NCBI GenBank assembly: GCA_016195815.1
Contig: JACPYX010000018.1
Span: forward strand, 124,001 to 188,000
DNA: 64,000 bases
Reading direction: 5' to 3'
Source of the DNA: Chloroflexota bacterium
Lineage (GTDB): Bacteria; Chloroflexota; Anaerolineae; Anaerolineales; Villigracilaceae
Shown in pieces: positions 30,092 to 46,142 of the stretch; positions within the stretch are counted from its first letter, which is position 1, and each line of letters starts with the position of its first letter. The notes under the pieces were generated by a model. The model was not told the origin of the DNA. It saw only the letters and a list, made by a program, of their open reading frames with translations, and did no database searches. The translations under genes were made by a program, and so were the position numbers.

Positions 30092-30191
30092 AAAGCTTGG
30101 AACAAGCCTCGAAAAACGCGCCGAGTCCCAGCCGTCCGGTGCACGCTTTGTTGGGCGGGAACGGTCATTCGATTTCTGCAAGCGAAATTAG
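29898..30191 (+). pseudogene. IS3 orfA transposase fragment fused in frame to repeat sequence
   Basis: The first ~62 residues are a typical IS3 OrfA helix-turn-helix: RRNFSGEFKARVVLELISG, LAEASREYSIKDSVPSRWKQ and EIFEQPKEL. From about 30092 the frame continues through the 3' half of an attC-like repeat, giving a non-homologous tail ending CKRN. Real OrfA continues with a leucine-zipper and overlaps OrfB; both are missing. It is a remnant left at the edge of the cassette island. Confidence 0.78.
30092..30156 (-). repeat. attC-like repeat, right-hand half only
   Basis: The last ~65 bases of the repeat family are present, ending GCACGCTTTGTTGGGC with the heptamer GTTGGGC. The left half is replaced by the IS3 fragment. 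In cassette terms it is the site 3' of the lipoprotein gene at 30347-30985. Confidence 0.7.
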
Positions 30192-30346
30192 ATCGAACAT
30201 AAGCAGAGAAATGAGCATCATTCCAATTTTGACTTCCACGTTGGTACGAAATGGAGAACGAATCGCAATCCTTTCGAAATTGCTTAATGTTGTTCCAGTA
30301 CATTCCAAACAATACCTGGCATGTCATCAGCAAAGCGCGATCCACT

Positions 30347-30985
30347 TTACTTGGAGTTAATCAGTTGTCCATTTTGCAGGCGAAACTGCAATGTTGTCAA
30401 TTGGCTGGGACAGCATAGCGGATCATTCGGTCCCAAGGTACGCACGGTGATGATAATCTCTCCCGATTGAATTTGGAGACCTTCCACGGCTACCGGCGAC
30501 CCGATATCCACGGTCGAGACGTTATAGGGCTGACCGTTCTGGTTGAGAAGCGCTGCTAATTCTTTCGTATCTCCATTGCCTCCATTGTGAGTTTGTAGAA
30601 TGACCACGGCGTCCTCAATTCTATCCGTATTCAAGTCTCCATAGGCGACAGAATCGAAAAGTTTGGTGGAATAGACATCAGGAGAAGCGTTGGGCTCGTT
30701 CGGAGTGCGGTAATAAATTCCGTTGGTTAAGTGAAATGTGCCCCAGAGAGGGGAATTAAATTGCGCATTTTCGATCAATAACATCGAAAGCCTTTGCACA
30801 TCCGGAGGCAAAGTCGCCGTTGGCAACTCAGAAGAGGGGATGAACTGTACAGCTGTGGGAGTCCACTCGAGTGGATCTGAAGACGCCGGTAGCGTAGGTG
30901 TACTGTCGAGGCCTCCCAACTGGAATGACCCCTGGCATGCGATCTGCAAAAGAAGCGCTACAATAAGCAAAATAAATTTTTTCAT
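30347..30985 (-). CDS. Lipoprotein of unknown function (cassette gene)
   Basis: The 212-residue protein has a lipobox LLLQIAC at residue ~17 and a Pro/Ser/Thr linker. Its domain (ENAQFNSPLWGTFHLTNGIY, DLNTDRIEDAVVILQTHNGG, VRTLGPNDPLCCPSQLTT) is of a kind seen in uncharacterised bacterial lipoproteins. The DLNTDRIEDAVV stretch looks like an FG-GAP/calcium-type loop. It is the leftmost gene of the cassette island; a partial attC-like site lies 190 bases beyond its stop. That spacer has no gene I can support. Confidence 0.7.
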   Translation of the reverse strand: MKKFILLIVALLLQIACQGSFQLGGLDSTPTLPASSDPLEWTPTAVQFIPSSELPTATLPPDVQRLSMLLIENAQFNSPLWGTFHLTNGIYYRTPNEPNASPDVYSTKLFDSVAYGDLNTDRIEDAVVILQTHNGGNGDTKELAALLNQNGQPYNVSTVDIGSPVAVEGLQIQSGEIIITVRTLGPNDPLCCPSQLTTLQFRLQNGQLINSK

Positions 30986-31131
30986 GATTGTGCGTCCCTT
31001 CGATGTAATATATTTACATGCATCTAGGCGTAGAGGAATTGTTGAATCCGGAACGTTTGCAGTGCCTTTAGGAAATAATACGCTTCAGAAAGGAAATTCG
31101 TTCCTCCAATCTTCATCTAGCAGATACGGCC

Positions 31132-31260
31132 GCCCAACGGCTGGCGTTAGCCGCAGGTGGGCGGGCGTGGATTCTGTTTGGGAGCAGGAAAAACCTGAAG
31201 CCAGAAAACTGCCTGAAAAACGCGGCGACTCCCACCCGTCAGGTGCGCGCCGTGTTGGGC
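31132..31260 (-). repeat. attC-like site 1 (full length, 129 bp)
   Basis: Bounded by GCCCAAC (31132-31138) and GTTGGGC (31254-31260). The arms are imperfectly complementary: GGTGGGC near the left end pairs with CCCACC near the right end. It lies 16 bases after the stop of the acetyltransferase gene. Confidence 0.8.
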
Positions 31261-31276
31261 GACTTCGATTTTATAA

Positions 31277-31717
31277 TCACTGCACTTCCTTGTACATGAA
31301 TATTACATGCTCAGCCACTGTATAGCCGTTTTTCTCATAAAACAACTTTGCAGGATGATATTTGTTGGTTAGCAGAGTTACTCCTCCCAGGCCTAATTCT
31401 TTCGAGAGTTCTTCAGCTCGGTTCATCAACATTTTTCCATAGCCATGACGCTGTCGATCTGGCTTTATGAATAATTCATCAATGAATATTTCATCGTTCG
31501 TCCACCATGTTTTTCGGTGAGCAAACATAGCCCCGACGATCTCATCGGCCTCGATGGCTACATATCCTATGAAATTGCGGTTCGATATAAAATCTGACAA
31601 ATACTTTTTACCCGTTTCCTTAGTCCAATGATCGTTCCAGGGAGGCGGGTTATAAGCTGCTCTCAACACTTCTACACACGTATCAATATCTTCGGGAAGT
31701 AGTTCTCTGATCTTCAA
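31277..31717 (-). CDS. GNAT-family N-acetyltransferase, TTG start (cassette gene)
   Basis: The 146-residue protein has the GNAT acetyl-CoA site: IDELFIKPDRQRHGYGKMLM, the R/Q-x-x-G-Y-G pyrophosphate loop, followed by NKYHPAKLFYEKNGY. The substrate is unknown; antibiotic or small-molecule acetylation is possible but not shown. The start is taken as TTG at 31717 because a near-perfect AAGGAGG lies 6 bases upstream and no ATG occurs in frame before the conserved KIRELLPED; frame upstream of this runs into an attC-like repeat. It forms a single-gene cassette with site 1. Confidence 0.82.
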   Translation of the reverse strand: MKIRELLPEDIDTCVEVLRAAYNPPPWNDHWTKETGKKYLSDFISNRNFIGYVAIEADEIVGAMFAHRKTWWTNDEIFIDELFIKPDRQRHGYGKMLMNRAEELSKELGLGGVTLLTNKYHPAKLFYEKNGYTVAEHVIFMYKEVQ

Positions 31718-31757
31718 TTCAGTCCTCCTTTTCTTTTCATGCTGATTGATGCGAAGT

Positions 31758-31890
31758 GCCCAACGGTGTGCGTTACCCGCTGGTGGGCGGGACGAGAGAA
31801 CGCCACTTTGCCGGGACCAACTTCGAGCCACGCAAACCGCCTGAAAACGCTGCGACTCCCACCCGTCAGGTGCACCACGCTTTGTTAGCC
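31758..31890 (-). repeat. attC-like site 2 (full length, 133 bp)
   Basis: Starts GCCCAAC and ends GTTAGCC, with the shared CGTTACCCGCTGGTGGGCGG arm on the left and CCCACCCGTCAGGTGCACCA on the right. It lies 40 bases after the stop of the DUF4386 gene. Confidence 0.78.
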
Positions 31891-31930: not shown

Positions 31931-32674
31931 TTAGTTATTTTTCAGGCTTCCCAGTTGAAAGAGCCTGATTGTAAACATAACCATCCAAGCCATGACTAAA
32001 AGTCCGCCTGGCATAGCAAAGGCTGTAGCCATATCTTTTATGTCAGGCGCAAAAGTTACCAGAACAATATAGAGTAGTATTAAGGCGCTTCCCACAATTC
32101 CTAAATATGACGTGATTTTGCTAAAAACCTTTCCTGTTAGCATAGTGAGCGACATGATAAGACCTGCAATATTTGGCAATACAAAGCCTATAAACACTGC
32201 CAAACTGCCATGTGTACCCCTTGCAAGCATGGCTTCACCTGCGGCAGCAAGCAAAGTTTTCTGGGACTCTGTTGTCGTGGTGGTGTATTTCTGACTCAGT
32301 TCAAGCATGGGTAGAGCTGTATTTGTCGTGACAAAAATCGTCGTCCCTACCAGAAAGACAATCAGGGCAAGCAGGGCATAAACAATGTTTGTTTTGCGAT
32401 GGGCAGCATAAAGCGCAAAGTAAGCAGGAATCAAAATTATTTGATTGATGATATTCAATAGGTCGAGGGTGTAAAGACCGAGCAGGGGATTCTCTTGAAA
32501 TAGAGCGAACCTATCTATGGCTGTTTGTGGCAGGGCAGATAAATTGCCGCCCGTCACGATGCCAAAGATTACATCAAGCAAAATCCCGATTAGTCCGATA
32601 ATGGTGGCAATACCGCCAAGAATATAGACGCTATTCCATTGGGCTTCGTTGCTTATATTTTTTGTCTCAGACAT
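31931..32674 (-). CDS. DUF4386-like membrane protein (cassette gene)
   Basis: The 247-residue protein has about six hydrophobic helices (for example VYILGGIATIIGLIGILLDV and YALLALIVFLVGTTIFV) and a Thr-rich loop (KYTTTTTESQKTLL). This pattern matches the DUF4386 family of integral membrane proteins of unknown function. GGAG stands 8 bases before the ATG at 32674, so the longer upstream frame, which overlaps the flavodoxin gene, is not used. It probably shares a cassette and transcript with the flavodoxin-like gene upstream. Confidence 0.75.
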   Translation of the reverse strand: MSETKNISNEAQWNSVYILGGIATIIGLIGILLDVIFGIVTGGNLSALPQTAIDRFALFQENPLLGLYTLDLLNIINQIILIPAYFALYAAHRKTNIVYALLALIVFLVGTTIFVTTNTALPMLELSQKYTTTTTESQKTLLAAAGEAMLARGTHGSLAVFIGFVLPNIAGLIMSLTMLTGKVFSKITSYLGIVGSALILLYIVLVTFAPDIKDMATAFAMPGGLLVMAWMVMFTIRLFQLGSLKNN

Positions 32675-32703
32675 TTGCATTGCTCCTTCTTGGAAAAAGG
32701 CGG

Positions 32704-33225
32704 TTATTTCGACAGAAGCAGTTTCAATTGAACCGCCCATTCTTTAATGGCATTCCAATTACGATGGTCGCCTTCCTTCCACACGCCAAACATCACACTC
32801 ACACGAAACATCAATCTGTCGCTGAACGATTCGATTTTACTGATATTCAATCCGCCTGCAAAGAATTCCACACTGACGGGCTTGACCAGCGTGCGTACAG
32901 GATCAAGCCATGTGGATATGTGCGAGCGATAATTTTCTCCGTTTGGCATTGCCAGAGTCATGCAGACTAAAAATGCGGCGAAGGGTTTGCGTTTCAATTC
33001 GTCTTGGTGTGTACGGATGAATTGCACTGCTTCGGGCAACCATGTTTTGTTGCGAACGGCGCTTCCCGCCACCACTGCGTTATATGTTGAAAGGTCTTTT
33101 ACTTCTTTCATGGGAATTACATCCGCTTGCATGCCGTTTTCAGCAAGCGTTTTTCCAATTGCTTCTGCCACCCCGACTGTCCAACCTGTTCGACTGGAAT
33201 AAGTTACAAGAACTTTATTATTCAT
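32704..33225 (-). CDS. Flavodoxin-domain protein (HemG-like) (cassette gene)
   Basis: The 173-residue protein starts KVLVTYSSRTGWTVGVAEAIG, an FMN phosphate-binding loop, and continues with VVAGSAVRNKTWLPEAVQFI and a final amphipathic segment. It resembles the flavodoxin domain of menaquinone-dependent protoporphyrinogen oxidases, but a simple flavodoxin-like redox role is equally possible. An AAAAGGAAA ribosome site precedes the ATG at 33225. It lies 30 bases upstream of the DUF4386 gene. Confidence 0.78.
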   Translation of the reverse strand: MNNKVLVTYSSRTGWTVGVAEAIGKTLAENGMQADVIPMKEVKDLSTYNAVVAGSAVRNKTWLPEAVQFIRTHQDELKRKPFAAFLVCMTLAMPNGENYRSHISTWLDPVRTLVKPVSVEFFAGGLNISKIESFSDRLMFRVSVMFGVWKEGDHRNWNAIKEWAVQLKLLLSK

Positions 33226-33267: not shown

Positions 33268-33394
33268 GGCTAACAGTGTGCGTTACCCGCTGGTGGGCGG
33301 GCATGGACTCGGTTCGAGAGCAGGTAAAACTTGAAGCGAGGAAAATGCTTAAAAACCGCAGAATCCCCAGCGTCCAATGCACGCTTTGTTGGAC
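33268..33394 (-). repeat. attC-like site 3 (full length, 127 bp)
   Basis: Starts GGCTAAC and ends GTTGGAC, which fits GTTRRRY exactly. It shares its left arm with site 2 (GTGTGCGTTACCCGCTGGTG). The next gene to the right ends 132 bases away. Confidence 0.8.
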
Positions 33395-33485
33395 AACCAC
33401 GATGAACGCAAGACTCGCCGCCTGAAAAAAGGCACCATCGCCAACTTGACTAGATTTTATACTCAGCTCAATCTTTGGCAACCAC
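33395..33485. repeat. Spacer repeat A, related to the sequence at 46143-46240
   Basis: The bases after site 3 (GATGAACGCAAGACTCGCCG, then CTTGAC and TTTGGCAAC) can be aligned with those after the last attC-like site at 46143 (TTGAACGCCAGACTCGAAGC, then CTTGAC and TTTGGCAAC). The two are diverged but colinear over ~90 bases. Function unknown. Confidence 0.5.
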
Positions 33486-33526
33486 TTGATCCCCAAAGAT
33501 GTCGTTAATCTTTAGGGTCTATCGAT

Positions 33527-34063
33527 TCATCCGTGATGATGTTTTCCTTCTTCCTCGCGCCCTTTTGCCGTTGCGGTGAGATACACTTTGTGCGACCACA
33601 CCTGCAATCCAAGCATGGATTCAACGTACTCGCGCGCCATATCCACGCTTTCATCAGTGTGTCGCTTTAGATGTTGCATGTGTTCAAAGCGCTTCTCGAC
33701 TTCACTCCCAACAAAATCCATGAGGGTCTTTTTCAGCTCATCAACGGAACCTGTCTCGATGGCTTTCTCTGCAATCGGGATGACGGGACCTTCGTCTACA
33801 CCAGCAGGTTTGAGTCCAGTGTAGGGTGCGCCTTCGCCCGCGCGGTGCAGACGGACGACTGTTTCAAAGAAGAAGGTATCAGCGATTTCGTGTGCGCCGT
33901 TTGGCTGTTGATGCAAAGGCAGTACTTTTTTGAATGCCGCGATGATTTCACCTTCGCTTTCCTTCGGAACGTACGGAAGGATAAAGTTGACATTTCCGGT
34001 TTCAAGGGCTTTCTTTGCCATCCTGACGACTGGTCCGCTAATTGAATCACAATGCGGAGGCAT
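33527..34063 (-). CDS. DUF6448-like protein (cassette gene)
   Basis: The 178-residue soluble protein begins PPHCDSISGPVVRMAKKAL and has the run GEGAPYTGLKPAG in the middle, which matches a conserved bacterial family annotated DUF6448. It ends with a His-rich tail (GKHHHG), which together with the N-terminal HCD could bind metal. A purine-rich GGAAAGGAAAAAAT ribosome site precedes the ATG. The function is unknown. Confidence 0.75.
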   Translation of the reverse strand: MPPHCDSISGPVVRMAKKALETGNVNFILPYVPKESEGEIIAAFKKVLPLHQQPNGAHEIADTFFFETVVRLHRAGEGAPYTGLKPAGVDEGPVIPIAEKAIETGSVDELKKTLMDFVGSEVEKRFEHMQHLKRHTDESVDMAREYVESMLGLQVWSHKVYLTATAKGREEEGKHHHG

Positions 34064-34428: not shown

Positions 34429-34583
34429 GCTCAACGGTGTGCGTTACCCGCGGGTGGGGCGGGGTGAGATAAAACTCCGAGAGCAGAATTCTGTTCGGGT
34501 GTAGAAAAGCCCGAAAATGCCGCAGAATCCCCACCATCCACTGAGGCGCGCAGCGCCGAGTCGATTGCATGCCGTTGTTAGCC
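34429..34583 (-). repeat. attC-like site 4, second subfamily (155 bp)
   Basis: Starts GCTCAAC and ends GTTAGCC. Its right arm carries CTGAGGCGCGCAGCGCCGAG, which the main family lacks but site 7 has. It ends 16 bases before the stop of the hydrolase gene. Confidence 0.75.
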
Positions 34584-34599: not shown

Positions 34600-35343
34600 C
34601 TAAGGTATACAAGACGCAAGAAATTTTACCGTGGCATCCGTTGTTTGCTGCCATTGGCTTTCCGCGGAAATCATGGCGGCCTTATCCCCAGGTTGAGGCC
34701 CATAATCACCAAACTGCCCATGGTTACCACCTTGAATAACGACAAATTGGGTATCGGCTGGTTCAAAGGCTTTGTATTGCTCGATCTTTGCCCCGTTGTC
34801 CAAACTGCCATCCTCCGTGCCGTAGATGGATAGCATCTTGATACCAGAATATTTTAGTCGGTCATCAGCTGGATAGGATGCCCAAAAGACTATCCCTTTT
34901 ATCTCCGGATGATTATAGGCAAAATAGGCCGATGCCACACCACCCAGAGAGTGTCCCCCGGTAACCCAACAGGCAACTTGAGGATAATCTTTCAGAACCG
35001 GCGCCCCTGCTTCAATATCAAAAAGCGCGAGATTGAGATTCACGCGTACCAGGATAACCAGATAGCCCTGTTCGGCAATACGATGCAAGATGGGGGAATA
35101 AGCACGAAAATCCACATGGCCACCGGGGTAAAAGAGGAACGCTGTCGCGGTTTTTTGTCCAGTAGGTTCAAAGGAAATGTAATTGCCATGATCAATAACG
35201 TGTACCACGCTATCAGACTTGAGTGCAGCAAGAGCATTTGTGCCAGCTTGGGAGGGCGTCTGCGCCCAAACGACAAATCCAATGGCAGATATAACGAGGA
35301 GGGCAATCAAACCTAAGACAAAGCGTTGGATAAATCGTCTCAT
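34600..35343 (-). CDS. Alpha/beta-hydrolase family protein with N-terminal membrane anchor (cassette gene)
   Basis: The 247-residue protein has one N-terminal hydrophobic helix (FVLGLIALLVISAIGFVVW) and then a hydrolase fold. The nucleophile elbow is TGGHSLGGVASAYF, an oxyanion region FLFYPGGHVDFRAY precedes it, and the acid and His are probably in IYGTEDGSLDNG and QGGNHGQFGDYG. The fold fits dienelactone-hydrolase-like esterases exported to the outer face of the membrane. The ATG at 35343 follows a GGAAG site; the longer frame upstream has none. The substrate is unknown. Confidence 0.83.
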   Translation of the reverse strand: MRRFIQRFVLGLIALLVISAIGFVVWAQTPSQAGTNALAALKSDSVVHVIDHGNYISFEPTGQKTATAFLFYPGGHVDFRAYSPILHRIAEQGYLVILVRVNLNLALFDIEAGAPVLKDYPQVACWVTGGHSLGGVASAYFAYNHPEIKGIVFWASYPADDRLKYSGIKMLSIYGTEDGSLDNGAKIEQYKAFEPADTQFVVIQGGNHGQFGDYGPQPGDKAAMISAESQWQQTTDATVKFLASCIP

Positions 35344-35459
35344 TCTCAATCTTCCTTTTTTGGCTATATAAAATTGCCTTTTTTCTATCTTGTTCTTGCA
35401 AATCATTTAATGCCTTTTCACCGCCCCGCCCTCTGTGACTTTAATGATGAGACACTTGT

Positions 35460-35604
35460 GCTCAACAATTTAGTGTGCAGGGCGCGGGAGAAGGTGTAGA
35501 TGTAGTTGCAGGCGTGACAGGCAGGGACGCGTCCGCGCTTCCACAGGCAGTAATCAAAATGAAAAGTACTGACGAGAGAAGTAAAATCTTTTTCATATTA
35601 TTTC
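35460..35604 (-). pseudogene. Disrupted attC start followed by a duplicated lipoprotein N-terminus
   Basis: GCTCAAC at 35460 begins like site 4 but the repeat is broken after a few bases. From 35480 to 35604 follows a copy, about 94% identical by eye, of 36746-36870, the 5' end of the neighbouring lipoprotein gene. Read on the minus strand from 35596 it gives MKKILLLSSVLFILITACGS and a short Pro/Thr linker, then a stop. It is a truncated duplicate in the place where the attC of the 35627-36862 cassette should be. Confidence 0.75.
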
Positions 35605-35626: not shown

Positions 35627-36862
35627 TTATTTTCTCGCAAAAGAAAGAGGTAGTAACATTTTTTGAAGCCCTATATCTATTGAAATATAATATTCTGAGC
35701 CTATTAGATCAGTCTGAGCTTTTTCCAAACCAACAACATCGTCTCGATTTATTATGGGGCCAATATTTTTTAATGTTCCTGGATCATTTCCCGGCTGGCT
35801 AAGAAGTGCGTCAAGGTTGGAAACAGGGCCAAAAGGAGGGACTCCTACTTTTTCAAAATAATTACCTCTTGATGCAAACTGTATCAATGGTAGAACTCCG
35901 TCCCATCCCCCTGCTTCAGGTAAGAAAAAATTTTCAAGCAAAGCCCCATAATCTCCATGTTTTCCATTTTCATCATTTCCTATCAACACTCCGGGGTCTC
36001 CTGTCAAAATCATTGTCTCTTTCCCGCTCACTTTTTTTGAATCGGCTGGATTCAAAAGTCTTAATGATAACGATTTACTAACGATTCCTTCTTTTATTGT
36101 CTTCCAAATAAGTGGATTTCCATCCGGGCCACGGACTATTTCGATTTGATTTAGATTTCTTGGTTGGAGCTGTGCATGACTGCTATCAGTTGCTTTATTA
36201 TATTCAAAGAATATCGAATAACCGGCAAAGTTTATCACGGCATCACTGTCATCGGCAAAAACCTTATTAAGCTCAGGATTTAGAAGGATCGTTTCTAGAA
36301 TTAAGTCTTGTCTACCTGGGGGATAAAAGCTTCCACTTGCCCTATCAGTATTAACCGATAGCGAAGCGACCCATTCTTTGCCTGTTTCATTCCAGTGAAG
36401 AACTCTTCCCTGCTTATCAACTACAGTTGCTACGCCATTCACATAACCGAGATTATGGATATCCTGTGAGATCGGTTTGCCGTTGGCGTCTTTTAAGATA
36501 TTGCCTTGAAAGTCCGTCTGAAAGTTTATCCCTGAGGCAACAATCTTGACATCTTTTTCAACTATAGCTGTCCCGTCGGGATTATAGCCCACGGTTACTG
36601 ACTTGATTGTCCCATTCTCGTTGAATGATTTATTAATTCCCTCTCTGTCTAATTTCCGAGCAAATTCAGGAGAAACACCGACAAGTGTACTGGTAAATTT
36701 TGCGGGGGCGGGAGTGGCAGTTTCGGTGGGGCTTGGAGTCGAACCGGGCGCGGGAGAAGGTGTAGATGTGGTTGCAGGCGTGGCAGGCAGAGACGCGCCC
36801 GCGCTTCCGCAGGCAGTAATCAAAATGAAAAGTACTGACGAGAGAAGTAAAATCTTTTTCAT
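35627..36862 (-). CDS. Lipoprotein of unknown function (cassette gene)
   Basis: The 411-residue protein has a lipobox LITAC at residue ~18, a long Thr/Pro/Ala linker and a large soluble domain of ~350 residues. The domain has repeated beta-type strands (GKPISQDIHNLGYVNGVATV, VDKQGRVLHWNETGKEW) and no family I recognise. It should sit on the outer face of the membrane. The start is at 36862; its 5' 125 bp are duplicated just beyond its 3' end. Confidence 0.72.
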   Translation of the reverse strand: MKKILLLSSVLFILITACGSAGASLPATPATTSTPSPAPGSTPSPTETATPAPAKFTSTLVGVSPEFARKLDREGINKSFNENGTIKSVTVGYNPDGTAIVEKDVKIVASGINFQTDFQGNILKDANGKPISQDIHNLGYVNGVATVVDKQGRVLHWNETGKEWVASLSVNTDRASGSFYPPGRQDLILETILLNPELNKVFADDSDAVINFAGYSIFFEYNKATDSSHAQLQPRNLNQIEIVRGPDGNPLIWKTIKEGIVSKSLSLRLLNPADSKKVSGKETMILTGDPGVLIGNDENGKHGDYGALLENFFLPEAGGWDGVLPLIQFASRGNYFEKVGVPPFGPVSNLDALLSQPGNDPGTLKNIGPIINRDDVVGLEKAQTDLIGSEYYISIDIGLQKMLLPLSFARK

Positions 36863-36870
36863 ATTATTTT
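36746..36870 (-). repeat. Intact copy of a 125 bp direct repeat (lipoprotein 5' end)
   Basis: This segment, containing the first ~39 codons of the lipoprotein gene, is repeated in the same orientation at 35480-35604. The copies differ at only a few positions, mostly in the linker codons. Confidence 0.85.
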
Positions 36871-37056
36871 CCCATACCAAACGGTTTTACATTTGCTTCC
36901 ACCATACGCCCGTGCATTCGGGCAGAATGACAGACTGTTTCTCGCGAACCTGATTAGCCATTTCTTCACCGAAGAAGGATCTTGCCAGATTCAAACAGGA
37001 CAATATAACTGTTTGCCGCAGGACGCCAAGACAGGACTGGGAGTAAATGAATAAGC

Positions 37057-38134: not shown

Positions 38135-38194
38135 TTTATGCTTGTCTCTCTGCCTGTAATTAATATGCAGGCTCTCCATATCTATAAATGAGCC

Positions 38195-38287: not shown

Positions 38288-39190
38288 TCAAAACTCTGCA
38301 TGCTTGAATAACCTAAGTCCATCAAGTGTAATCCACTTGCTTGGTTGGTTGCGTTTCTCAATGGGCCAAGTACGGGAAACAGAGCCACACAACCATCGTC
38401 CTTGTCTATCTTGACGACTTAGAAATAATTCAAGCAGAGGCGCGAACCGTGGGTCGCGGGCATAGTTATGAGCGGCAAGAGCCTTGAGCGCACTCAGCAA
38501 GTCCCATGCACGAGGTACGCCGAAAGTAAGCCAACGTTTGTGTTCGGCCTTGAAATCATATTTGGCGTCCAGCAGCACATTCGCGAGGCGCTTCACCACT
38601 CGTTTGGACTGTGCTGATCGCATGTCAGCGGGAAGCACAGCCAAGCCGGTGAGCGCTGCAATTGCGCCCCACAAGCAATCTCGATGCTGGTAGCGTCCGC
38701 AATCGAGAGCGTCTTCACTAGACATTTCTTCGATAAGAAAAGCGAAGGCAGACTGCACACGGGGATCGTCGTCCAAGCCGTAGTAAATCAAAAAAGGAAG
38801 ATGCAGACTCGTGGTACAGGGGAAGATCCCGCTACGAAGAGTCTTGGTCATTGAAAAGCCGCCGCTCTCATGCTGGCAGAATTTCAGAAAGGAATCACAG
38901 CCTGCAATAGTGCGTTTATCGGGAGGAACGCCTAGCATGTATAGCAAGGAGAGCACAGTTCCGGTTCCCTGGGCGGTGTGCGGTTTTGTTTCCTCGCCCC
39001 AAAAGCCTTTGGCGTGTTGAAGGGCAAATAACTCCTTCACCAACGGTTGTTGAACGATAGCGGCCCTGGCTTCTTGCACTTCAGGGTCATTTGCAGGTCG
39101 ATCAAGAATATCAACCAGTGTCCAGTAGCGGACGGATGGATTTTCTGGATTGAGTAGCCAAGGAAGTGAGGCGGTAATCAGATTTTGCAT
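38288..39190 (-). CDS. Alpha/alpha-toroid (terpene cyclase/prenyltransferase-fold) protein (cassette gene)
   Basis: The 300-residue protein has repeated helix pairs with QGxG/GGF-type turns (KGFWGEETKPHTAQGTGTVL, HESGGFSMTKTL, DCGRYQHRDCLWGAIAAL), the pattern of the squalene-cyclase/prenyltransferase alpha-toroid. The DxDD acid motif of real cyclases is not obvious, so an enzymatic role is uncertain. A second protein with the same architecture is encoded in another cassette at 45057-45998. Confidence 0.72.
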   Translation of the reverse strand: MQNLITASLPWLLNPENPSVRYWTLVDILDRPANDPEVQEARAAIVQQPLVKELFALQHAKGFWGEETKPHTAQGTGTVLSLLYMLGVPPDKRTIAGCDSFLKFCQHESGGFSMTKTLRSGIFPCTTSLHLPFLIYYGLDDDPRVQSAFAFLIEEMSSEDALDCGRYQHRDCLWGAIAALTGLAVLPADMRSAQSKRVVKRLANVLLDAKYDFKAEHKRWLTFGVPRAWDLLSALKALAAHNYARDPRFAPLLELFLSRQDRQGRWLCGSVSRTWPIEKRNQPSKWITLDGLRLFKHAEF

Positions 39191-39232: not shown

Positions 39233-39367
39233 GGCTAACGGCGTGCGTTACTGGCGCTGGGGCGGTTGTCGGCCTGAAACCAACTTTGAGACAAACACCA
39301 CGCGAACCCTAAACGCCCGTTCGCTGAGGCGCGAAGCGCCGCGTCGCTGTGCAGGCGGTTGTTGGCC
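39233..39367 (-). repeat. attC-like site 7, second subfamily (135 bp)
   Basis: Starts GGCTAAC and ends GTTGGCC. Its right arm contains CTGAGGCGCGAAGCGCCGCG, as in site 4. It ends 78 bases before the stop of the DUF1295 gene. Confidence 0.75.
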
Positions 39368-39445: not shown

Positions 39446-40312
39446 TCAAAGTCGCGGAATTAATACAGGAGTTTTCTTTTTGTAAGATTCGTAATCTTCC
39501 TGCCCGCCCCATTTTTTATCCGCTTTTTTCTCAAGTAAAGGAACTCCACTGACGCGCGTAAGAAGCAAGGTGACAAAGACGGGAGAAATCAAAGCAACCC
39601 ACTGCCAGCCTTGCAGAATCGGTAAAGCGATGATGGCTACACCGACCCAGAGAACGATTTCGCCAAAGTAATTGGGATGACGGGATCGAGACCATAAACC
39701 GGCTTGAATGAACTTGCCCTTGTTGTCCGGATTTGCATTGAAACGACTCTTTTGGAAGTCGGCTACAACTTCAATGGTAAAGCCGAAAGTCCATACCAGA
39801 AAACCGACCAGGGCAAATAAATCCAGTTCTTTTCTGTTGGCGGTTGTAATGGCGACCAGCGCAGCAGCCATGGTGAACGTTACCCATAAACCCTGGATCG
39901 TCCAAACGCTTAGGAACCGGACAAAAGAAGGTTTGATTTCATCGAACCGGTCATCTTTTCCTGCTTTTTTGATGCGACTGAACAAGAAAGTTCCCAGGCG
40001 GATTGCCCAGATTACTACCAGCGCCCATAGAAGAATTGATCGAGCATCAACACCGGTACTAAAAAAAACTGCGATTGTGATTATAGAAATATAAGTGATA
40101 CTTCCCGTCAGATCAAAGAATTTTTCGGTTTGTAACACATATGCGGGGATAAAGGCCAGCCACTGAATTGAAAAAGTCAATCCGACCAATAAAGCAAATA
40201 ATGGAACCCCAGCAATCAGGGTCCCGTTTTGACTGCCGGCTAAAGCGAACAGGAGGCCAATCAATATCAAAATGGGTATTGCAATTAGTGAGTTGCGATC
40301 TGTTGTTTTCAT
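39446..40312 (-). CDS. DUF1295 / steroid 5-alpha-reductase-like membrane protein (cassette gene)
   Basis: The 288-residue protein has six to seven membrane helices. Near residue 210 it has the segment LWSRSRHPNYFGEIVLWVGV, the hallmark of the DUF1295/ICMT-like family of reductases or methyltransferases, which bind NADPH or SAM from the cytosolic side. The C-terminus EDYESYKKKTPVLIP is typical. Substrates in bacteria are unknown. Confidence 0.85.
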   Translation of the reverse strand: MKTTDRNSLIAIPILILIGLLFALAGSQNGTLIAGVPLFALLVGLTFSIQWLAFIPAYVLQTEKFFDLTGSITYISIITIAVFFSTGVDARSILLWALVVIWAIRLGTFLFSRIKKAGKDDRFDEIKPSFVRFLSVWTIQGLWVTFTMAAALVAITTANRKELDLFALVGFLVWTFGFTIEVVADFQKSRFNANPDNKGKFIQAGLWSRSRHPNYFGEIVLWVGVAIIALPILQGWQWVALISPVFVTLLLTRVSGVPLLEKKADKKWGGQEDYESYKKKTPVLIPRL

Positions 40313-40425
40313 GAAAACTTGTCCTTGTATAAACTTCTATCGAACGTAGATTAAAACCCGCATCACCGACCTTGCATCGAGACTGGCTGTCGTTGCGGCA
40401 TTCTTACAGCCGTTCGCGATACTTG

Positions 40426-40752
40426 TCAGGCATGCTTCCCCAACCAGAATTTGCGCCAGTCGTTTCCACTGGATTGCAGGGCAATGAAGGCATACAGACT
40501 GCCAGCGAAAAATCCCAGCGTCATCATGGCAATTGCCCACAGGATAGCAAGGGGCAGGGACTTTTCGCGGTAGATGATCCAGCACGAGAATAGAATGAAG
40601 CCCGTGTACAGATCAACGAGCGAGACAATGCCCCAGGGCATGGCAAAGAGTTGGCTGCCTTCGCCAAAGAAGTCGCCACGTGTGAAGCCATTGACAAGCA
40701 CGGCGGTCATAGCGAGGACACCGAGAATGGAAATGAGTTTTGCAAATTTCAT
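40426..40752 (-). CDS. DUF1475-like small membrane protein (cassette gene)
   Basis: The 108-residue protein has three to four hydrophobic helices. The segment MPWGIVSLVDLYTGFILFSC followed by WIIYREKSLPLAILWA matches the DUF1475 family known from plants and bacteria. It begins 4 bases after the DegV stop and is probably co-transcribed with it. No attC-like site is visible between this gene's end and the DUF1295 gene start at 40312, so the two neighbouring cassettes may have fused. Confidence 0.75.
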   Translation of the reverse strand: MKFAKLISILGVLAMTAVLVNGFTRGDFFGEGSQLFAMPWGIVSLVDLYTGFILFSCWIIYREKSLPLAILWAIAMMTLGFFAGSLYAFIALQSSGNDWRKFWLGKHA

Positions 40753-40756
40753 GAAT

Positions 40757-41593
40757 TTACTCCTTTGAGATGCAGGCAAACCCGAGCGCGCCTACGCCAA
40801 GATGCACGCCGAGGACAGGTGTGATTTGCGCAATAAGAACTTCGCCTTGCGGAAAATAAGAGAGCACCTGCTGATACAAGGCTTCGGCTTCTTCCTGAAC
40901 ACCCGCGTGCAGGATGGCGAATTTTTCGTAGGGTGCATATTCTGCCAGCCATTCGAGCAGGCGGGCCGTGGCGCGCTTTTGTGTGCGCGTGCGGTGCGCG
41001 CTGGCTTTGCCCATATTCATGTGAAGCAAAGGCTTGATTTGCAACGTTTCGCCAAACTTTGCCAGCGCAACATGCATCCGTCCACTGCGGCGCAGATATT
41101 TGAGCGTTTTCAGCGAAGCGAAGACGTAGGTGCGCTTCATCAGATCATTCAAGGCGGAGATAATTTCCTGCACTTCTTTTCCCGACTCGGCCAACTGCGC
41201 GGCGCGTTCGACGATGAACCCCAGCCCAAGACTGAGTTGGCTTGAATCCAGCACGGCGACAGGGATACGCACGAACTGTTCCGCCGCAATGCGAGCCGAG
41301 TTGACAGTAGCGCTCAAAGTCTCCGAGATGTGAATGGACAGAATGGCTTGCGCGCCTTCATGTGCGAGATGCTCGAAGACTTGCGTGAAAACTTCGGGGC
41401 CAGGCGCGGCAGTTTTAGGATGCGGATTGAAATCGGGTAGTCGGGTGTAGAACTCACTGCGCGTCAGGTCAACGCCATCTAGGAAAGATTTGTCGCCCAC
41501 ATTGATCGCCAGCGGGATGACAGAAATGGCATGTCGGCTGACAATCTCTTCGGGCAAATCACAAGTGCTGTCGGTAACAATGCGAATGTTCAT
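40757..41593 (-). CDS. DegV-family fatty-acid-binding protein (cassette gene)
   Basis: The 278-residue protein starts IRIVTDSTCDLPEEIV and has DFNPHPKTAAPGPEVFTQ near residue 55 and LSIHISETLSATVNSARIAA near residue 90, all hallmarks of DegV/FakB proteins. These hold a fatty acid that a FakA kinase phosphorylates. It ends GVHLGVGALGFACI, also typical. No fakA is present nearby. GC-rich codon use looks closer to the chromosomal flanks than to the other cassettes. Confidence 0.88.
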   Translation of the reverse strand: MNIRIVTDSTCDLPEEIVSRHAISVIPLAINVGDKSFLDGVDLTRSEFYTRLPDFNPHPKTAAPGPEVFTQVFEHLAHEGAQAILSIHISETLSATVNSARIAAEQFVRIPVAVLDSSQLSLGLGFIVERAAQLAESGKEVQEIISALNDLMKRTYVFASLKTLKYLRRSGRMHVALAKFGETLQIKPLLHMNMGKASAHRTRTQKRATARLLEWLAEYAPYEKFAILHAGVQEEAEALYQQVLSYFPQGEVLIAQITPVLGVHLGVGALGFACISKE

Positions 41594-41651: not shown

Positions 41652-41776
41652 GACTAACGCATACCGTTAGCCGCAAGTGAGCGTGGACAAGGCTTGGAAG
41701 CAGGATCCTGCTGAGGTGTTGAAAACTGCCAACAAACGCGGCGCATCCCACTTGTCGGTTGTACGCTGTGTTAGGT
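41652..41776 (-). repeat. attC-like site 8 (125 bp)
   Basis: Starts GACTAAC, ends GTTAGGT, with the main-family right arm GGCGCATCCCACTTGTCGGT. It ends 41 bases before the stop of the SDR-like gene. Confidence 0.78.
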
Positions 41777-41817: not shown

Positions 41818-42447
41818 CTAATAACTTACCAATGGCAATTTTCCGAGCCACTTCCTTTCGGTCAATTCCTTCAACACAAAATCAGCCCCATCGGCGCGGG
41901 AAAGTTGTGTACCTGACTCTTTGCCAACAAAACCAATTTGATATTTGCGCGTGTGTTTGCCATCTATCAAACGCGGATAACGTACAATCGTCCATTCCAA
42001 ATCAGAAGCTTGAATTACTTTTGCATTCTCGGCGGAATCTAGTATTACATCTTTTGCCAGAAGATTAAGCGAGAAACCAATAAAATGGTCAATAAATTTT
42101 GGCTTATCTTCGGGCTGACGAACACCTGCGCCCGTTGTCGAAACCAGACGGCGTACTCCATGCTTTTTCATCCCCGCCACAATATTTTTTGCGGATGTTT
42201 CCATCATGTGGGGAATTGGCGGACGCGTCGGTCCCAACGCGCTGATTACCGCTTCTTGTCCCGCAATTGCATTTTCGACTGCGGCGGCGTCCATTGAATC
42301 GCCTTTGAACACGATTAGATTTATGTGTTTGACCCCGAATTTTTCTGGCGAACGGACAAATGCAGTTACCGTATGTCCTGCTTCCAACGCTTGCTCCACA
42401 ACTTTCAATCCAACTCCGCGAGATGCTCCAAACACAACGATTTTCAT
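41818..42447 (-). CDS. NAD(P)-binding SDR-like oxidoreductase (cassette gene)
   Basis: The 209-residue Rossmann protein starts KIVVFGASRGVGLKVVEQAL and has HGVRRLVSTTGAGV in the middle and DLEWTIVRYPRLIDG near residue 155, the pattern of YwnB/NmrA-like atypical SDRs. It follows the TetR-family regulator gene on the same strand with a 20-base gap and is probably regulated by it. Confidence 0.83.
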   Translation of the reverse strand: MKIVVFGASRGVGLKVVEQALEAGHTVTAFVRSPEKFGVKHINLIVFKGDSMDAAAVENAIAGQEAVISALGPTRPPIPHMMETSAKNIVAGMKKHGVRRLVSTTGAGVRQPEDKPKFIDHFIGFSLNLLAKDVILDSAENAKVIQASDLEWTIVRYPRLIDGKHTRKYQIGFVGKESGTQLSRADGADFVLKELTERKWLGKLPLVSY

Positions 42448-42467
42448 TTTCTTTTCCTTTTTTGAAT

Positions 42468-43028
42468 TTATTGCGACAATAACACCTTGAGGTATTTTGC
42501 TGCTGTCCGCAAGGGATTACCCGAATGATATGTGCGGCTCAATATGATGCCGCCTTCCACTGTGGCGGTGATAAACGTGCCTAATTCTTCCGCCTTTAAT
42601 TTTGTAAACCCGCTTTCAAGCAATTTTTCTTTGAATGCTGTTTCCAGCAAGGTGTATGCTTCTCGGCAGGCTGAATTAATGCGTTCGGATTTTGTAGCAG
42701 TTTCCATCGCCACTGCGGTTAGTGGACTGCCCGCCGCGAATCCTGACGATTCCACATGGTCAGCGATATTCAATATAAAGTCATGGATTGCTTTTGCCGC
42801 ATTGCTGTTGCTGCTTAATCCATTTTGTATCCGCTCGGCAGTCGCTTTTCCTGATTGCAAGACCGCTTCAGAAGTGATTTGTTCTTTGCCTTCAGGGAAA
42901 TAATGGTACAGAGAACCTTTCGGAGCGCCGCTCTCTTTAACGATTTCATTCAAGCCTGTGCCGTAATAGCCTTGTTTTTCCATCAAGTCGCAAGTAGTTT
43001 GTAGGATATGCTCGCGGGCGTTGCTCAT
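42468..43028 (-). CDS. TetR/AcrR-family regulator (cassette gene)
   Basis: The 186-residue protein has the N-terminal helix-turn-helix REHILQTTCDLMEKQGYYGT, then SGAPKGSLYHYFPEGKEQI, and a C-terminal domain of the LmrA/YxaF type. It probably represses both its own operon and the divergent NmrA-like gene; an imperfect dyad lies between them at 43100-43117. The ligand may be an electrophile or quinone, to judge from the reductase-type targets, but this is inference. Confidence 0.88.
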   Translation of the reverse strand: MSNAREHILQTTCDLMEKQGYYGTGLNEIVKESGAPKGSLYHYFPEGKEQITSEAVLQSGKATAERIQNGLSSNSNAAKAIHDFILNIADHVESSGFAAGSPLTAVAMETATKSERINSACREAYTLLETAFKEKLLESGFTKLKAEELGTFITATVEGGIILSRTYHSGNPLRTAAKYLKVLLSQ

Positions 43029-43099
43029 TTCAACCTCATTTCTCTATCTGAATAAACAATGTCATTTGTCATCTTTTCAAAATTGCGCGACGATGTTAT

Positions 43100-43117
43100 T
43101 ATAACGACTGGTCTATA
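43100..43117. promoter_or_regulatory. Imperfect dyad, candidate TetR-family operator
   Basis: TATAACGACTGGTCTATA lies in the 115 bp between the divergent regulator and NmrA-like genes. Its right half resembles the GGTCTA half-site used by several electrophile-sensing TetR-family repressors such as NemR. Binding is not shown. Confidence 0.45.
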
Positions 43118-43143
43118 TAACGTCAAGCACAGGAGAAAAGGGA

Positions 43144-44001
43144 ATGTCAGTCCCAATTTTAGTTATCGGTGCGCTCGGCAATGTGGGCACGGAGGTTGTC
43201 AAGCACATTTTAGCCAAAGGCGGCACAGTTCGCGCGGCAGATATTGATGTGAGAAAAATCAAGGAAAGATTTGGCGATTCGGTGGAATCGGTTCGCTTTG
43301 ATTTTACAGACCCCACTACTTACGTGGCGACTTTTCAAGGCGTAAAGAAAATGTTCTACATGCGTCCGCCACACCTAACGAACATACAGCGCGATATGAA
43401 TCCATCTATGGACGCGGCAAAACAGGCGGGCGTAACGCATGTTGTCTTTCTTTCATTGATTGGTATTGAAAACGCGAAGTATGTTCCCCATTACAAAGTA
43501 GAAACATACCTGCATAAAATCAACCTGCAAACCACCTTTCTGCGGTGTAGTTTTTTTATGCAGAACTTGAATACCACTCACCGCAAAGAAATCAAAGAAC
43601 GAAATGAAATATTTGTCCCTGTGGGAAATGCCAAAACCAGTTTTATCGACGCCCGTGATATTGGTGCGGTTGCGGCTATGACATTGACCGAGGAAGGACA
43701 TGCAGGAAAAAATTATGATTTGACAGGTAGTGAGGCTCTTGATTATTGGGAAGCAACAAGAATAATGAGCGAAGTACTTGGGCGCAAAATTATTTATCGC
43801 AATCCCAATCCCTTTTATTTTCTCATTGAGACCATACGCAGGGGAACGCCGTTTATGTTCGCTCTCGTGCAGATGGGGTTATACACATCTACAAGATTCG
43901 GAATGGCAGAAAATGTAACTCGTGAAGTAGAAAATTTGACGAGGCGTAAGCCGATCGTGTTCAGGCAATATGTGATTGATTATAAAAATAACTGGTTTTG
44001 A
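43144..44001 (+). CDS. NmrA-like NAD(P)-binding protein (cassette gene, opposite strand)
   Basis: The 285-residue protein has a Rossmann turn VIGALGNVGTEVVKHILAKG, then AGVTHVVFLSLIG and FLRCSFFMQNL, typical of NmrA/azoreductase-type atypical SDRs. It is the only plus-strand coding gene inside the island and diverges from the TetR regulator. An AGGAG site precedes the ATG and a strong terminator follows, so it is a self-contained unit carried in a multi-gene cassette. Confidence 0.85.
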   Translation: MSVPILVIGALGNVGTEVVKHILAKGGTVRAADIDVRKIKERFGDSVESVRFDFTDPTTYVATFQGVKKMFYMRPPHLTNIQRDMNPSMDAAKQAGVTHVVFLSLIGIENAKYVPHYKVETYLHKINLQTTFLRCSFFMQNLNTTHRKEIKERNEIFVPVGNAKTSFIDARDIGAVAAMTLTEEGHAGKNYDLTGSEALDYWEATRIMSEVLGRKIIYRNPNPFYFLIETIRRGTPFMFALVQMGLYTSTRFGMAENVTREVENLTRRKPIVFRQYVIDYKNNWF

Positions 44002-44078: not shown

Positions 44079-44206
44079 ACCTAACGGTTTGCGTTAGCCG
44101 CAAGTGGGCAGGCGCGGATTCGGCTTGGGAGCAGAAAAAACCTGAAGCTAGAAAACCGCTTGAAAACGCGGCGCATCCTACTTGTCCGTTGCGCGCGGTG
44201 TTAGGC
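44079..44206 (-). repeat. attC-like site 9 (128 bp)
   Basis: Starts ACCTAAC, ends GTTAGGC. Centre: GGGAGCAGAAAAAACCTGAA and GCTTGAAAACGCGGCGCATC, identical in long stretches to sites 10 and 11. It ends 143 bases before the stop of the glycosylase gene; the gap has only a doubtful 29-40-codon minus-strand frame. Confidence 0.82.
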
Positions 44207-44349: not shown

Positions 44350-44796
44350 CTACCTGGCATCGTCTGGTACCACTTTCTCCCATGCTTCTACTTCTCCTCT
44401 TACTGCTCGAAATAACGGATGTGGCTCTGGTACTTCTACCGAAGCAATCTTCATATATAGCTCTCTATTCCGTTCCTTTAGTTTTTCCTTCAAGTGCATC
44501 AACTCATACTCAAGTTGTCCATCCGTAACTTCTATCTTTTCCTCTGCGTTTCCCACTCCTATCTTATCTCGATTGAAGCGATACCCACGTTTCTTCGCTT
44601 CTTCATACACACCCAACAAATATGCATCTATCATCCTTACCGGATCAATTTGCCTTTTGAAACGCTCCAATTGAGGATGCCTCCGATAGCCTGTAGTTTC
44701 GCCTCGCAATACTTTACGTGCCAGCAAGCCTTCCCGCCAACATGCTACTAACCCTTTTGTATCGAGGTAACCGGGGTGAATACTCCACAATCGCAT
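44350..44796 (-). CDS. Pyrimidine-dimer DNA glycosylase / endonuclease V-like protein (cassette gene)
   Basis: The 148-residue protein starts MRLWSIHPGYLDTKGLVACW and continues with RHPQLERFKRQIDPVRMIDA and LLGVYEEAKKRGY, the hallmark sequence of the bacterial family related to T4 endonuclease V. It should cut at UV photoproducts through an N-terminal nucleophile; maturation and activity are not shown. It is a single-gene cassette with site 9. Confidence 0.88.
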   Translation of the reverse strand: MRLWSIHPGYLDTKGLVACWREGLLARKVLRGETTGYRRHPQLERFKRQIDPVRMIDAYLLGVYEEAKKRGYRFNRDKIGVGNAEEKIEVTDGQLEYELMHLKEKLKERNRELYMKIASVEVPEPHPLFRAVRGEVEAWEKVVPDDAR

Positions 44797-44919
44797 TTGT
44801 TTTTTGCTCTCTTAAGTTTTTGTGAGTTCGGTAGTTAAGAACAATGACCCTGTCATCAAATTATATCGCCTGAGCCTTCATAGGGCCTTGCGGAGAATCA
44901 ATTATCTCAACTCTCGAGG

Positions 44920-45047
44920 GCCTAACGACAGGCGTTAGCGGCAAGTAGGCGGGACTGGATTCGGCTTGAGAGCAGTATAAACCCGAAGCTAGAAAACCGC
45001 TTGAAAACGCGGCGCATCCCACTTGTCGGCTGCACGCTGTGTTAGGC
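44920..45047 (-). repeat. attC-like site 10 (128 bp)
   Basis: Starts GCCTAAC, ends GTTAGGC, so the outer heptamers are exact complements. The right arm is GGCGCATCCCACTTGTCGGC. It ends 9 bases before the stop of the toroid-fold gene. Confidence 0.85.
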
Positions 45048-45056
45048 GTTTTTGTA

Positions 45057-45998
45057 TCATTCGCCAAAATGAGTGATGACTCTCAATGCTCGCAACGTAT
45101 TCCAGCGGCTTGGGGCGCCTGTTTTCTCCATGTCAATATGGGTTTGCCCTGGATGTTTTGCTTGAATGACCCATTTGCCATCTTCCCGCCGTTTCTTTTT
45201 CAATATATCCAGCGCCTCCCGCATCCGTGGATCGTAGCTGATCCCAGCGAATTGAAAATGATCTAGTGCGCGCAGTATATCGTATTTCCAACGCGATGGA
45301 TAAGAAAGCATCAGCATTTTTTTATCGATAATATTCCCAGTTCGATGAGATCGAAATAACCGATGCTGCAAAATGAATTCTCTTGCTCTATCCGCCGCTC
45401 TTTGCAGTTCCTCAATCCTGTACCTATAGCTATTATTTGTGTATTCCAATATTCCTTCCAGAACGGATATCGTAGAATGAAGTGAGCTATGTGTAGCACC
45501 TGTCATATTAGAATTGCAATTGAAGCCTCCATCCTGCATATGTTCTTTGAGGAGGAAATCTACAATTGATTTCAATTTGTCCTGATGGTTTCTGAAATAT
45601 GCAGCATAATTTAAAAACATGCCGTTTACGCAAACATCACTTTTCTTTGCTGCTCCACTACACAAAATTCCTCCATCGGGACCTTTTAGGTTTTCTAGTA
45701 CTTGTGAAATGGATTGCCTGATTTCGGCGTTTTTGGGCGATATGGCGAGGTTCTTTAGATCTAGAATTGTATAATGTGTTGAAATCCATTTCGGCTGATA
45801 AAAACGATCTCCCCAGTGTCCTTCTTTCTTACGGTAACTTAGAAACTGAGCACCCCATCCTTCGGTTGCGATGCGGTCTTGCAAATCTTGCTTTTTGATT
45901 GCTAGCAAGTCACGATGAACCTGATACTGAATCGAAACATCCCCTTCCAGCAGCCAATCGATGAGTTGAGGGTCATATAATGCGACTGAAGATTTCAT
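45057..45998 (-). CDS. Second alpha/alpha-toroid fold protein (cassette gene)
   Basis: The 313-residue protein has the same architecture as the protein at 38288-39190: a VSIQYQVHRDLLA start, glycine turns (EGHWGDRFYQPKW, MQDGGFNCNSNMTGATHSSL), a KYDILRALDHFQF helix and a C-terminal segment REDGKWVIQ followed by SRWNTLRALRVI. The ending closely parallels the QGRWLCGS...SKWITLDGLRL of the other. It is a helical-repeat protein; catalysis is not evident. The start is placed at 45998; an earlier in-frame codon at 46019 overlaps the adjoining repeat. Confidence 0.72.
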   Translation of the reverse strand: MKSSVALYDPQLIDWLLEGDVSIQYQVHRDLLAIKKQDLQDRIATEGWGAQFLSYRKKEGHWGDRFYQPKWISTHYTILDLKNLAISPKNAEIRQSISQVLENLKGPDGGILCSGAAKKSDVCVNGMFLNYAAYFRNHQDKLKSIVDFLLKEHMQDGGFNCNSNMTGATHSSLHSTISVLEGILEYTNNSYRYRIEELQRAADRAREFILQHRLFRSHRTGNIIDKKMLMLSYPSRWKYDILRALDHFQFAGISYDPRMREALDILKKKRREDGKWVIQAKHPGQTHIDMEKTGAPSRWNTLRALRVITHFGE

Positions 45999-46013
45999 CG
46001 TTGCTTTCCAAAC

Positions 46014-46142
46014 GCCCAACGGCTTGCGTTACCTGTGTATGGGCGGGCGTGGATTCGGCTTGGGAGCAGAAAAAACCCGAAGCCAGAAAACTGCCTGAAA
46101 ATGGCGCAGAATCCCACTTGTCGGCTGCACGCTTTGTTAGGC
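46014..46142 (-). repeat. attC-like site 11 (129 bp), last copy
   Basis: Starts GCCCAAC and ends GTTAGGC, with the main-family centre GGGAGCAGAAAAAACCCGAA. It is the rightmost repeat. On its right lies no intact gene on the minus strand. Confidence 0.82.

Follow-up and report, generated by a model that had tools for sequence, protein, structure and literature searches.

A truncated attC array without an adjoining integrase gene, most likely a relocated piece of a chromosomal integron, in an Anaerolineales-related genome

Imperfect inverted repeats lie between unrelated genes in a 64,000-nucleotide stretch of a Chloroflexota genome (the window, i.e., the whole stretch analyzed; positions 124,001 to 188,000 of contig C3), and the locus raises the question of whether they are attC recombination sites of integron gene cassettes and, if so, how such an array comes to stand without an integrase gene. 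C3 is 370,508 bases long, and the genome (G000; 3.16 Mb) is 97.9% complete. We conclude, at a confidence of 0.88, that the array is a cluster of attC sites lacking an integron integrase (CALIN) and most likely a truncated piece that was relocated from a sedentary chromosomal integron in an Anaerolineales bacterium. A relocated fragment is the most likely origin because the array is cut at both ends and lies at a break in synteny. The original prediction, made from the nucleotide letters alone, had proposed a probable Chloroflexota host, which is supported by inference.

attC sites and gene cassettes of the array

One imperfect dyad recurs through the array (window positions 30,101 to 46,142) in 10 full-length copies (81 to 155 bp) and 3 partial ones, which reproduces the number and sizes given in the original prediction. 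Its G+C content is 46.7%, versus 52.7% for the window outside 30.0 to 46.5 kb. The canonical attC arrangement is an R box, a spacer, and an L stem with extrahelical bases on one arm, on the bottom strand. Most of the copies end in RYYYAAC and GTTRRRY, and the repeats show the R box pair formed by these heptamers, the spacer, the L stem, and the extrahelical bases on one arm.

The position of the sites relative to genes follows the order of integron cassettes, that is, gene and then attC in one orientation along the minus strand. All 11 predicted distances from the stops of minus-strand genes to the following site (9, 12, 12, 16, 16, 40, 41, 78, 132, 143, and 190 nt) were recovered exactly, and a twelfth (147 nt) leads to the partial site at 35,460. 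Twelve of the 13 sites lie within 200 nt past a minus-strand stop, whereas random placement of sites of the same lengths puts 1.45 there on average and at most 7 of 13 (20,000 trials; hand-chosen gene list). Each cassette consists of a minus-strand gene or a small gene group ending in attC. The cargo is mixed by Pfam family, in keeping with the functional randomness first proposed, with three cassette proteins lacking any Pfam match, and an NmrA-like gene (43,144 to 44,001) is indeed the sole plus-strand gene among the annotated cassette genes. A PADLOC scan of 12 of the 17 window cassette proteins gave no matches.

For the structure, seven window sites and one site on contig C5 were aligned in bottom-strand (plus) orientation (alignment A3) and made into a covariance model, R1. 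The written structure has 24 pairs and comprises a 7-bp R box, a spacer, a short stem, an extrahelical G, the L stem, an extrahelical T, and an 8-bp stem. R1 found 11 sites in the window, all on the plus strand and all within 30.0 to 46.1 kb; 7 of these are training sites, and the remaining 4 score 20.2 to 41 bits. Two further window matches reached an E value of 1 or lower, at 12.8 and 12.7 bits; one echoes the site at 41,652 on the minus strand. A larger alignment of 80 sites from this genome and its relatives (29 sources picked for having R1 matches; E ≤ 1e-10) was fitted to the structure and gives pairing numbers biased in its favor: 93.9% of the cells pair, 16 of 24 pairs have a compensatory change, and double-sided changes number 244 cells versus 90 (standard deviation, 9) in shuffles and 6 to 48 in slid controls. 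The extrahelical bases, proposed earlier as a check on the sites, are present throughout this alignment (T in 80/80 and G in 80/80 sites). Single-sequence DNA folding of each site gives similar energies for both strands, so that the choice of strand rests on the covariance model and the extrahelical bases. The structural case for these predicted attC sites is built on a model made in this analysis, and an Rfam 15 scan of the window gave no gathering match. The proposed attC identity nevertheless stands, in that the home-made R1 model scores the sites and that their polarity and 3'-of-gene pattern hold.

The features of the array and its edges are as follows (window positions; bit scores are those of R1).

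29,838 to 30,100 (+): truncated transposase OrfA, a transposable-element remnant that interrupts the distal attC (PF01527, E = 1.1e-6; weak IS66/IS3 NCBIfam matches below cut-off); left limit set by what we take to be an IS3-like end
30,101 to 30,156 (+): partial attC 1, R'' half only, distal end of the array (26.6 bits; model match 30,036 to 30,156)
30,347 to 30,985 (-): cassette gene, putative lipoprotein (PF14041 below cut-off)
31,132 to 31,260 (+): attC 2 (140.7 bits; R1 training site)
31,277 to 31,720 (-): cassette gene, GNAT acetyltransferase (PF00583, E = 4.9e-14)
31,758 to 31,890 (+): attC 3 (101.6 bits; training site)
31,931 to 32,740 (-): cassette gene, DUF4386 (PF14329, E = 9.6e-7); open reading frame limits as scanned, start codon provisional
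32,704 to 33,225 (-): cassette gene, flavodoxin, in one cassette with the DUF4386 gene (PF12724, E = 4.6e-23)
33,268 to 33,394 (+): attC 4 (113.1 bits; training site)
33,527 to 34,063 (-): cassette gene, DUF6448 (PF20046, E = 7.9e-51)
34,429 to 34,583 (+): attC 5, 155 nt (41 bits, model match 34,429 to 34,561; non-training; ends set by sequence)
34,600 to 35,406 (-): cassette gene, alpha/beta hydrolase (PF12695, E = 2.1e-54)
35,460 to 35,479 (+): partial attC 6, R' end only (by sequence; missed by R1)
35,480 to 35,603: truncated second copy of the 5' end of the 35,627 to 36,880 cassette gene (96% identical to 36,746 to 36,869)
35,627 to 36,880 (-): cassette gene, function unassigned, lipoprotein by eye (no Pfam or PADLOC match)
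37,065 to 37,090 (+): partial attC 7, R'' end only (by sequence; missed by R1)
37,103 to 38,134 (-): cassette gene, alcohol dehydrogenase/quinone reductase type (PF08240, PF00107)
38,195 to 38,275 (+): attC 8, shortened, 81 nt (22.5 bits; model match 38,170 to 38,275)
38,288 to 39,190 (-): cassette gene, function unassigned (no Pfam or PADLOC match)
39,233 to 39,367 (+): attC 9 (20.2 bits)
39,446 to 41,593 (-): three-gene cassette, DUF1295, DUF1475, and DegV (domain matches)
41,652 to 41,776 (+): attC 10 (104.8 bits; training site)
41,818 to 44,001: cassette with an NAD(P)-binding protein (-), a TetR regulator (-), and the NmrA-like protein (+)
44,079 to 44,206 (+): attC 11 (134 bits; training site)
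44,350 to 44,796 (-): cassette gene, pyrimidine dimer DNA glycosylase family (PF03013, E = 6.4e-23)
44,920 to 45,047 (+): attC 12 (135.2 bits; training site)
45,057 to 45,998 (-): cassette gene, function unassigned (no Pfam match; a 35% relative adjoins an attC in congener G002, locus L164)
46,014 to 46,142 (+): attC 13, proximal end of the array (135 bits; training site)
46,143 to 46,440: probable remnant of the attC 13 cassette, cut off on the right side (by sequence; RNase R homology from 46,441)
46,441 to 47,149 (+): fragment of an RNase R gene, truncated at the 5' end and frameshifted by an 8-nt gap (RNB domain; BLAST to four relatives, gap against two)

The two 96% identical 5'-end copies (35,480 to 35,603 and 36,746 to 36,869) lie beside two half attC sites and represent a trace of duplication and deletion within the array. 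The noncoding stretches beside attC 4 (33,395 to 33,500) and attC 13 (46,143 to 46,250) are similar by eye, which suggests related cassette tails. The order DUF1295-DUF1475-DegV recurs at 72 to 80% identity in locus L029 (9,858 to 11,898).

Integrase, attI, and attC in this genome and its relatives

No intI or attI lies to the right of the array, as had been noted at the outset; attI is missing there because the array is truncated on that side, with RNase R homology from 46,441. An IntI profile searched against all six frames of the window found nothing at E ≤ 1 and no intI relic, and the best attI profile score in the window was only 5.1 bits. The locus therefore lacks the intI and attI that stand beside the array in a complete integron. 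A CALIN is delimited by an attC spacing below 4 kb and the absence of IntI, and the largest spacing between full window sites is 3.6 kb.

The CALIN of the original prediction stands insofar as no integrase or attI adjoins the array, but the genome as a whole does encode an IntI, on C5, and has a second array, on C4. The IntI emerged from the proposed search of other contigs and is above the cut-off on C5 only (TIGR02249, 457 bits; cut-off, 265); against the solved IntI4 chain 2a3v it gives an E value of 6e-88. At its start, C5 carries, in order, a part-cassette, an attC (119.4 bits), a 500-amino-acid (aa) cassette gene, an attI (26.3 bits), and intI, and thus the three parts of a complete integron. 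R1 detected 35 attC sites in the genome at E ≤ 0.1, of which 11 belong to the window array, 19 are on C4, 1 is on C5, and 4 are singletons (C20, C8, and two on C12). The 19 sites form an array at the end of C4 (132.5 to 148.8 kb), which stops 7 nt past an attC, and the arrays at the C4 end and the C5 start share orientation. C4 and C5 probably hold one broken integron. Adjoining genes in the C4 array (L129, 10,817 to 12,345) encode a GmrSD_N protein (PADLOC NsnA/PD-T4-2_A) and a HEPN protein and are defense-like.

A search with the C5 integrase gave 564 stretches in named genomes that encode a relative. Of these, the best 80 loci (953 kb) were kept; they are mostly from Anaerolineae or Chloroflexi, with some from Cyanobacteria. 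R1 found 62 sites in 24 of these loci, and all 62 are on the intI strand (plus) and upstream of intI. Upstream, same-strand attC sites are the geometry of integrons, and this geometry played no part in building R1. In an IntI tree of 79 rows, the 12 cyanobacterial rows all fall to the same side of a branch, the 65 Chloroflexota rows need two changes, and the C5 integrase falls in a supported set with 30 Chloroflexota rows.

Among 41 whole genomes (this one and others of the same genus, family, and order), 23 encode an IntI above the curated cut-off and 25 have attC sites of this family (E ≤ 1e-5); counted from the lists, 14 have both, 11 have attC only, and 7 have neither. In G012, a single contig, attC sites in both orientations lie in a region enclosed by two oppositely oriented copies of a XerA/IntI-like recombinase (L212, 1,165 to 1,920; L213, 15,724 to 16,479), which share 34% identity with the C5 IntI. 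The intI genes of G009, G015, G017, and G022 lie in longer frames (355 to 478 aa) in which the family match breaks in two near position 229, which points to an insert within the integrase.

Array ends, flanks, and origin

At the left end of the array, a truncated transposase gene breaks the last attC. At the right end, the RNase R fragment aligns by BLAST with the genes of four relatives from 46,441 onward; two of these alignments show an 8-nt gap, which disrupts the RNase R frame. The motif GGCTAAC at 46,470 was tried as an insertion junction in the RNase R gene and rejected, because homology from 46,441 puts it inside the gene. The RNase R family cut-off was likewise dropped as a test of gene loss, since the frames of the relatives (444 to 502 aa) are set against a 711-position model, and a search with the fragment was used. 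This search returned the fragment itself and one 25-residue match in its own genome, 12 kb away (C3, 182,807 to 182,881), and longer homologs in 4 of 24 relatives. The 25-residue stretch (window positions 58,807 to 58,881) is 84% identical to part of the RNase R fragment.

The block to the left of the array (24.7 to 29.8 kb) is kept in congener G005 and, from 25.7 kb on, also in G002, and in both it then leads into one common set of other genes. The block to the right (47.3 to 52 kb) is kept in G005 on a different contig from the left block and is preceded there by other genes. The G005 and G002 stretches next to these conserved blocks contain no attC. Because the flank blocks have other neighbors in the congeners and the array ends are truncated, the array lies at a break in synteny, with both ends cut.

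As to mechanism, the plus strand of the window would be the bottom strand of the cassettes, which when single stranded would form hairpins with the 7-bp R box, the unpaired spacer, the L stem, and the extrahelical T and G. The C5 IntI would recognize these hairpins, and cassettes could still be excised and reinserted at attI or at another attC. We infer that the integrase is active, that it acts in trans on the window array, and that the CALIN arose by rearrangement and not through loss of an intI of its own. The scattering of integron parts around these chromosomes looks unusual.

Relocation of an array piece is favored over the other origins considered here, for which our ratings are rough and overlap. 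A complete second integron at this locus may have lost its own intI and attI by deletion, for which the truncation of the right end at about 46,440 and the broken intI copies in relatives (e.g., G008) can be cited; we regard this as unlikely, as the six-frame profile search of the window found no intI relic and the other neighbors of the flank blocks in a congener require a rearrangement in any case. Assembly in place, by off-target insertion of cassettes (attC with a genomic site) through an IntI acting in trans, is about as unlikely as such a loss. It draws on the lone cassettes found elsewhere (e.g., the TIR gene and its attC that separate malQ from a tRNA-editing-domain gene, an interval that in G005 is short and lacks a cassette) and on the off-target activity of IntI recorded in the cited part of PMC10127599, but the 13 window sites share one orientation, the ends are cut by unrelated fragments (transposase and RNase R), and no clean G^TT point is seen where RNase R homology starts. 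An attG insertion would place the junction at a G^TT point of a site that a relative keeps intact; no clean junction is seen where the right end runs into the RNase R fragment, and the left end is lost.

It is improbable that the flanks were misjoined in assembly and that the array truly belongs to the integron of C4 and C5. Arrays do break contigs (a contig end lies within 2 kb upstream of intI, on the attI side, in 47 of the 80 IntI loci, versus within 2 kb downstream in 7), and the synteny break coincides with the array; against this, the right junction lies outside any repeat found, and the left junction is in a partial attC beside the transposase remnant, which is a weak argument because such remnants can be repeated. 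That the dyads are some other palindromic repeat of the REP or MITE type, as their imperfect form and location between genes might suggest, has a negligible probability, being refuted by the polarity of the sites beside intI: they show strict polarity and a postgene position, and the 62 related sites are all upstream of intI on one strand.

Several observations, including the bias of the pairing numbers given above, weigh against a relocated CALIN fragment. R1 missed the partial sites at 35,460 and 37,065 in its window search and scored sites 8 and 9 low (22.5 and 20.2 bits). Covariation in the eight founding sites alone is no higher than in shuffles, and RNAalifold recovered from the 80-site alignment the L stem and not the R box pairs, with the first 19 columns folding on themselves. 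No R1 match was found in 56 of the 80 IntI loci, many of which are cut close to intI, and 9 of the 41 genomes have an IntI without an R1 site. The joining of C4 and C5 is inferred, as no exact end overlap was found over the 15 to 119 nt checked. Finally, a misjoined contig could account for the flanks of the array.

Dispersed cassettes, orphan attI sites, and known systems

Cassettes also occur singly in this genome. On C12, the interval from malQ (Glyco_hydro_77) to the tRNA-editing-domain gene (L133, 5,108 to 7,317) holds a TIR protein gene (PADLOC TIR-TM, E = 1.1e-70) and another gene with an attC, and the content of this post-malQ interval differs in the congener loci (L161, L160, and L159): G005 has a short stretch and no cassette, in G003 a partial attC and a weakly scoring attI-like site (10.6 bits) accompany an undecaprenyl diphosphate synthase gene, and G002 has a ResIII helicase and a DNA methylase with no attC. 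On C20, direct repeats at a tRNA-Lys gene enclose a small island that contains genes for a D12-class DNA methyltransferase and a PD-(D/E)XK protein, an attC, and a phage-type integrase (L130; repeats at 4,811 to 4,860 and 10,674 to 10,752; tRNA-Lys at 10,678 to 10,750). Downstream (3') of pnp, different attC-bearing inserts lie in the same orientation to pnp on C12 (L132, 4,077 to 7,501) and in G005 (L168, 1,110 to 8,955); G002 has about 250 nt downstream of pnp.

An attI profile was trained on 31 sites that a motif had located upstream of intI in relatives, with the present genome excluded. It matches the C5 attI of the present genome (26.3 bits), a site on C20 (29.1 bits; L130, position 6,565), and a site on C12 (19.7 bits; L133, position 7,238), the latter two adjoining the first cassette gene. 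In a control of 635,033 bases downstream of intI, there were no matches of at least 15 bits and two of at least 12. Among 43 dispersed attC loci without IntI, hand-picked from this and related genomes and possibly sharing genomes with the training set, 14 have an attI-like match that scores 15 bits or more with the strand and side expected (L130, L133, L202, L175, L205, L203, L181, L197, L164, L180, L168, L201, L174, and L177), and 17 have one of at least 12. A match off expectation reaches 15 bits in four loci: in L202, L168, and L177 it is the same site read on the opposite strand (in L177 the wrong strand outscores the expected one, 22.8 versus 15.6 bits), and in L180 it is a further site. 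No such match was found in the other 29 loci, 8 of which have less than 1.7 kb beyond the last attC; the C8 singleton and the other C12 singleton have no attI match. A 34-protein IntI profile found no convincing intI relic in the 14 loci, with two weak matches, to the phage-type integrase on C20 (14.4 bits) and to a frame of 34 residues next to the C12 site (7.5 bits, E = 0.85).

As a sequence pattern matched by this profile, attI without intI is real; this result was unexpected and concerns loci outside the window. The orphan attI-like sites differ among themselves and from the C5 attI, and this diversity suits relics or lateral arrival as well as it suits platforms for insertion. Because 14 of the 43 intI-less loci carry an attI-like site and the post-malQ contents vary between congeners, we tentatively propose that Anaerolineales may have a distributed integron, in which one intI would serve scattered attI platforms, each with one or a few exchangeable cassettes, some of them defense genes. 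An attI is usually expected beside intI. If the orphan attI sites are real platforms, this expectation overlooks some of the system, and loci at present classed as CALIN could serve as sites of insertion. A search of the open-access literature found no paper on orphan attI, which is weak evidence of absence, and, among the papers listed, none devoted to Anaerolineales integrons.

The original prediction held that a chromosomal array in this phylum would be notable; the phylum is not new for integrons, since a passage of PMC2426708 reported intI in Chloroflexi in 2008. Chloroflexota are among the integron phyla listed in the cited parts of PMC8618304 and PMC9668308, and a 2025 paper (PMC12772301) reports that sul4, which is associated with integron integrases, is carried by a member of the Chloroflexota. 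Integrons in Chloroflexota are thus already published, and the window array is another example. What it adds, to a phylum that the cited passages list or mention in passing, is a well-supported array and an attC and attI family spread over related genomes.

Among known systems, the array resembles the CALIN and sedentary chromosomal integron arrays described, in IntegronFinder terms, in the cited parts of PMC9024848 and PMC9668308, with tandem gene-attC units in one orientation, spacing below 4 kb, bottom-strand hairpins, mixed cargo, and no adjoining intI. Unlike those arrays, it belongs to an Anaerolineales-related host, has its own attC family, mostly of 125 to 135 nt, and is accompanied elsewhere in the genome by an intI with attI and by a larger array built from attC sites of that family. 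The lone cassettes outside the main array, and the short interval without a cassette in a congener, resemble the single cassettes at genomic attG sites (Loot et al. 2024, as cited in a passage of PMC11023631); a feature here is the recognizable attI on the cassette-start side in 14 of the 43 dispersed loci. The term "attI-like" is applied to off-target sites in the cited part of PMC10127599. The C5 integrase resembles IntI4 (PDB 2a3v) in aligning over residues 8 to 319, and differs in grouping with 30 Chloroflexota integrases in the tree. We take the source of 2a3v to be V. cholerae, and the aligned residues presumably cover the IntI-specific insertion.

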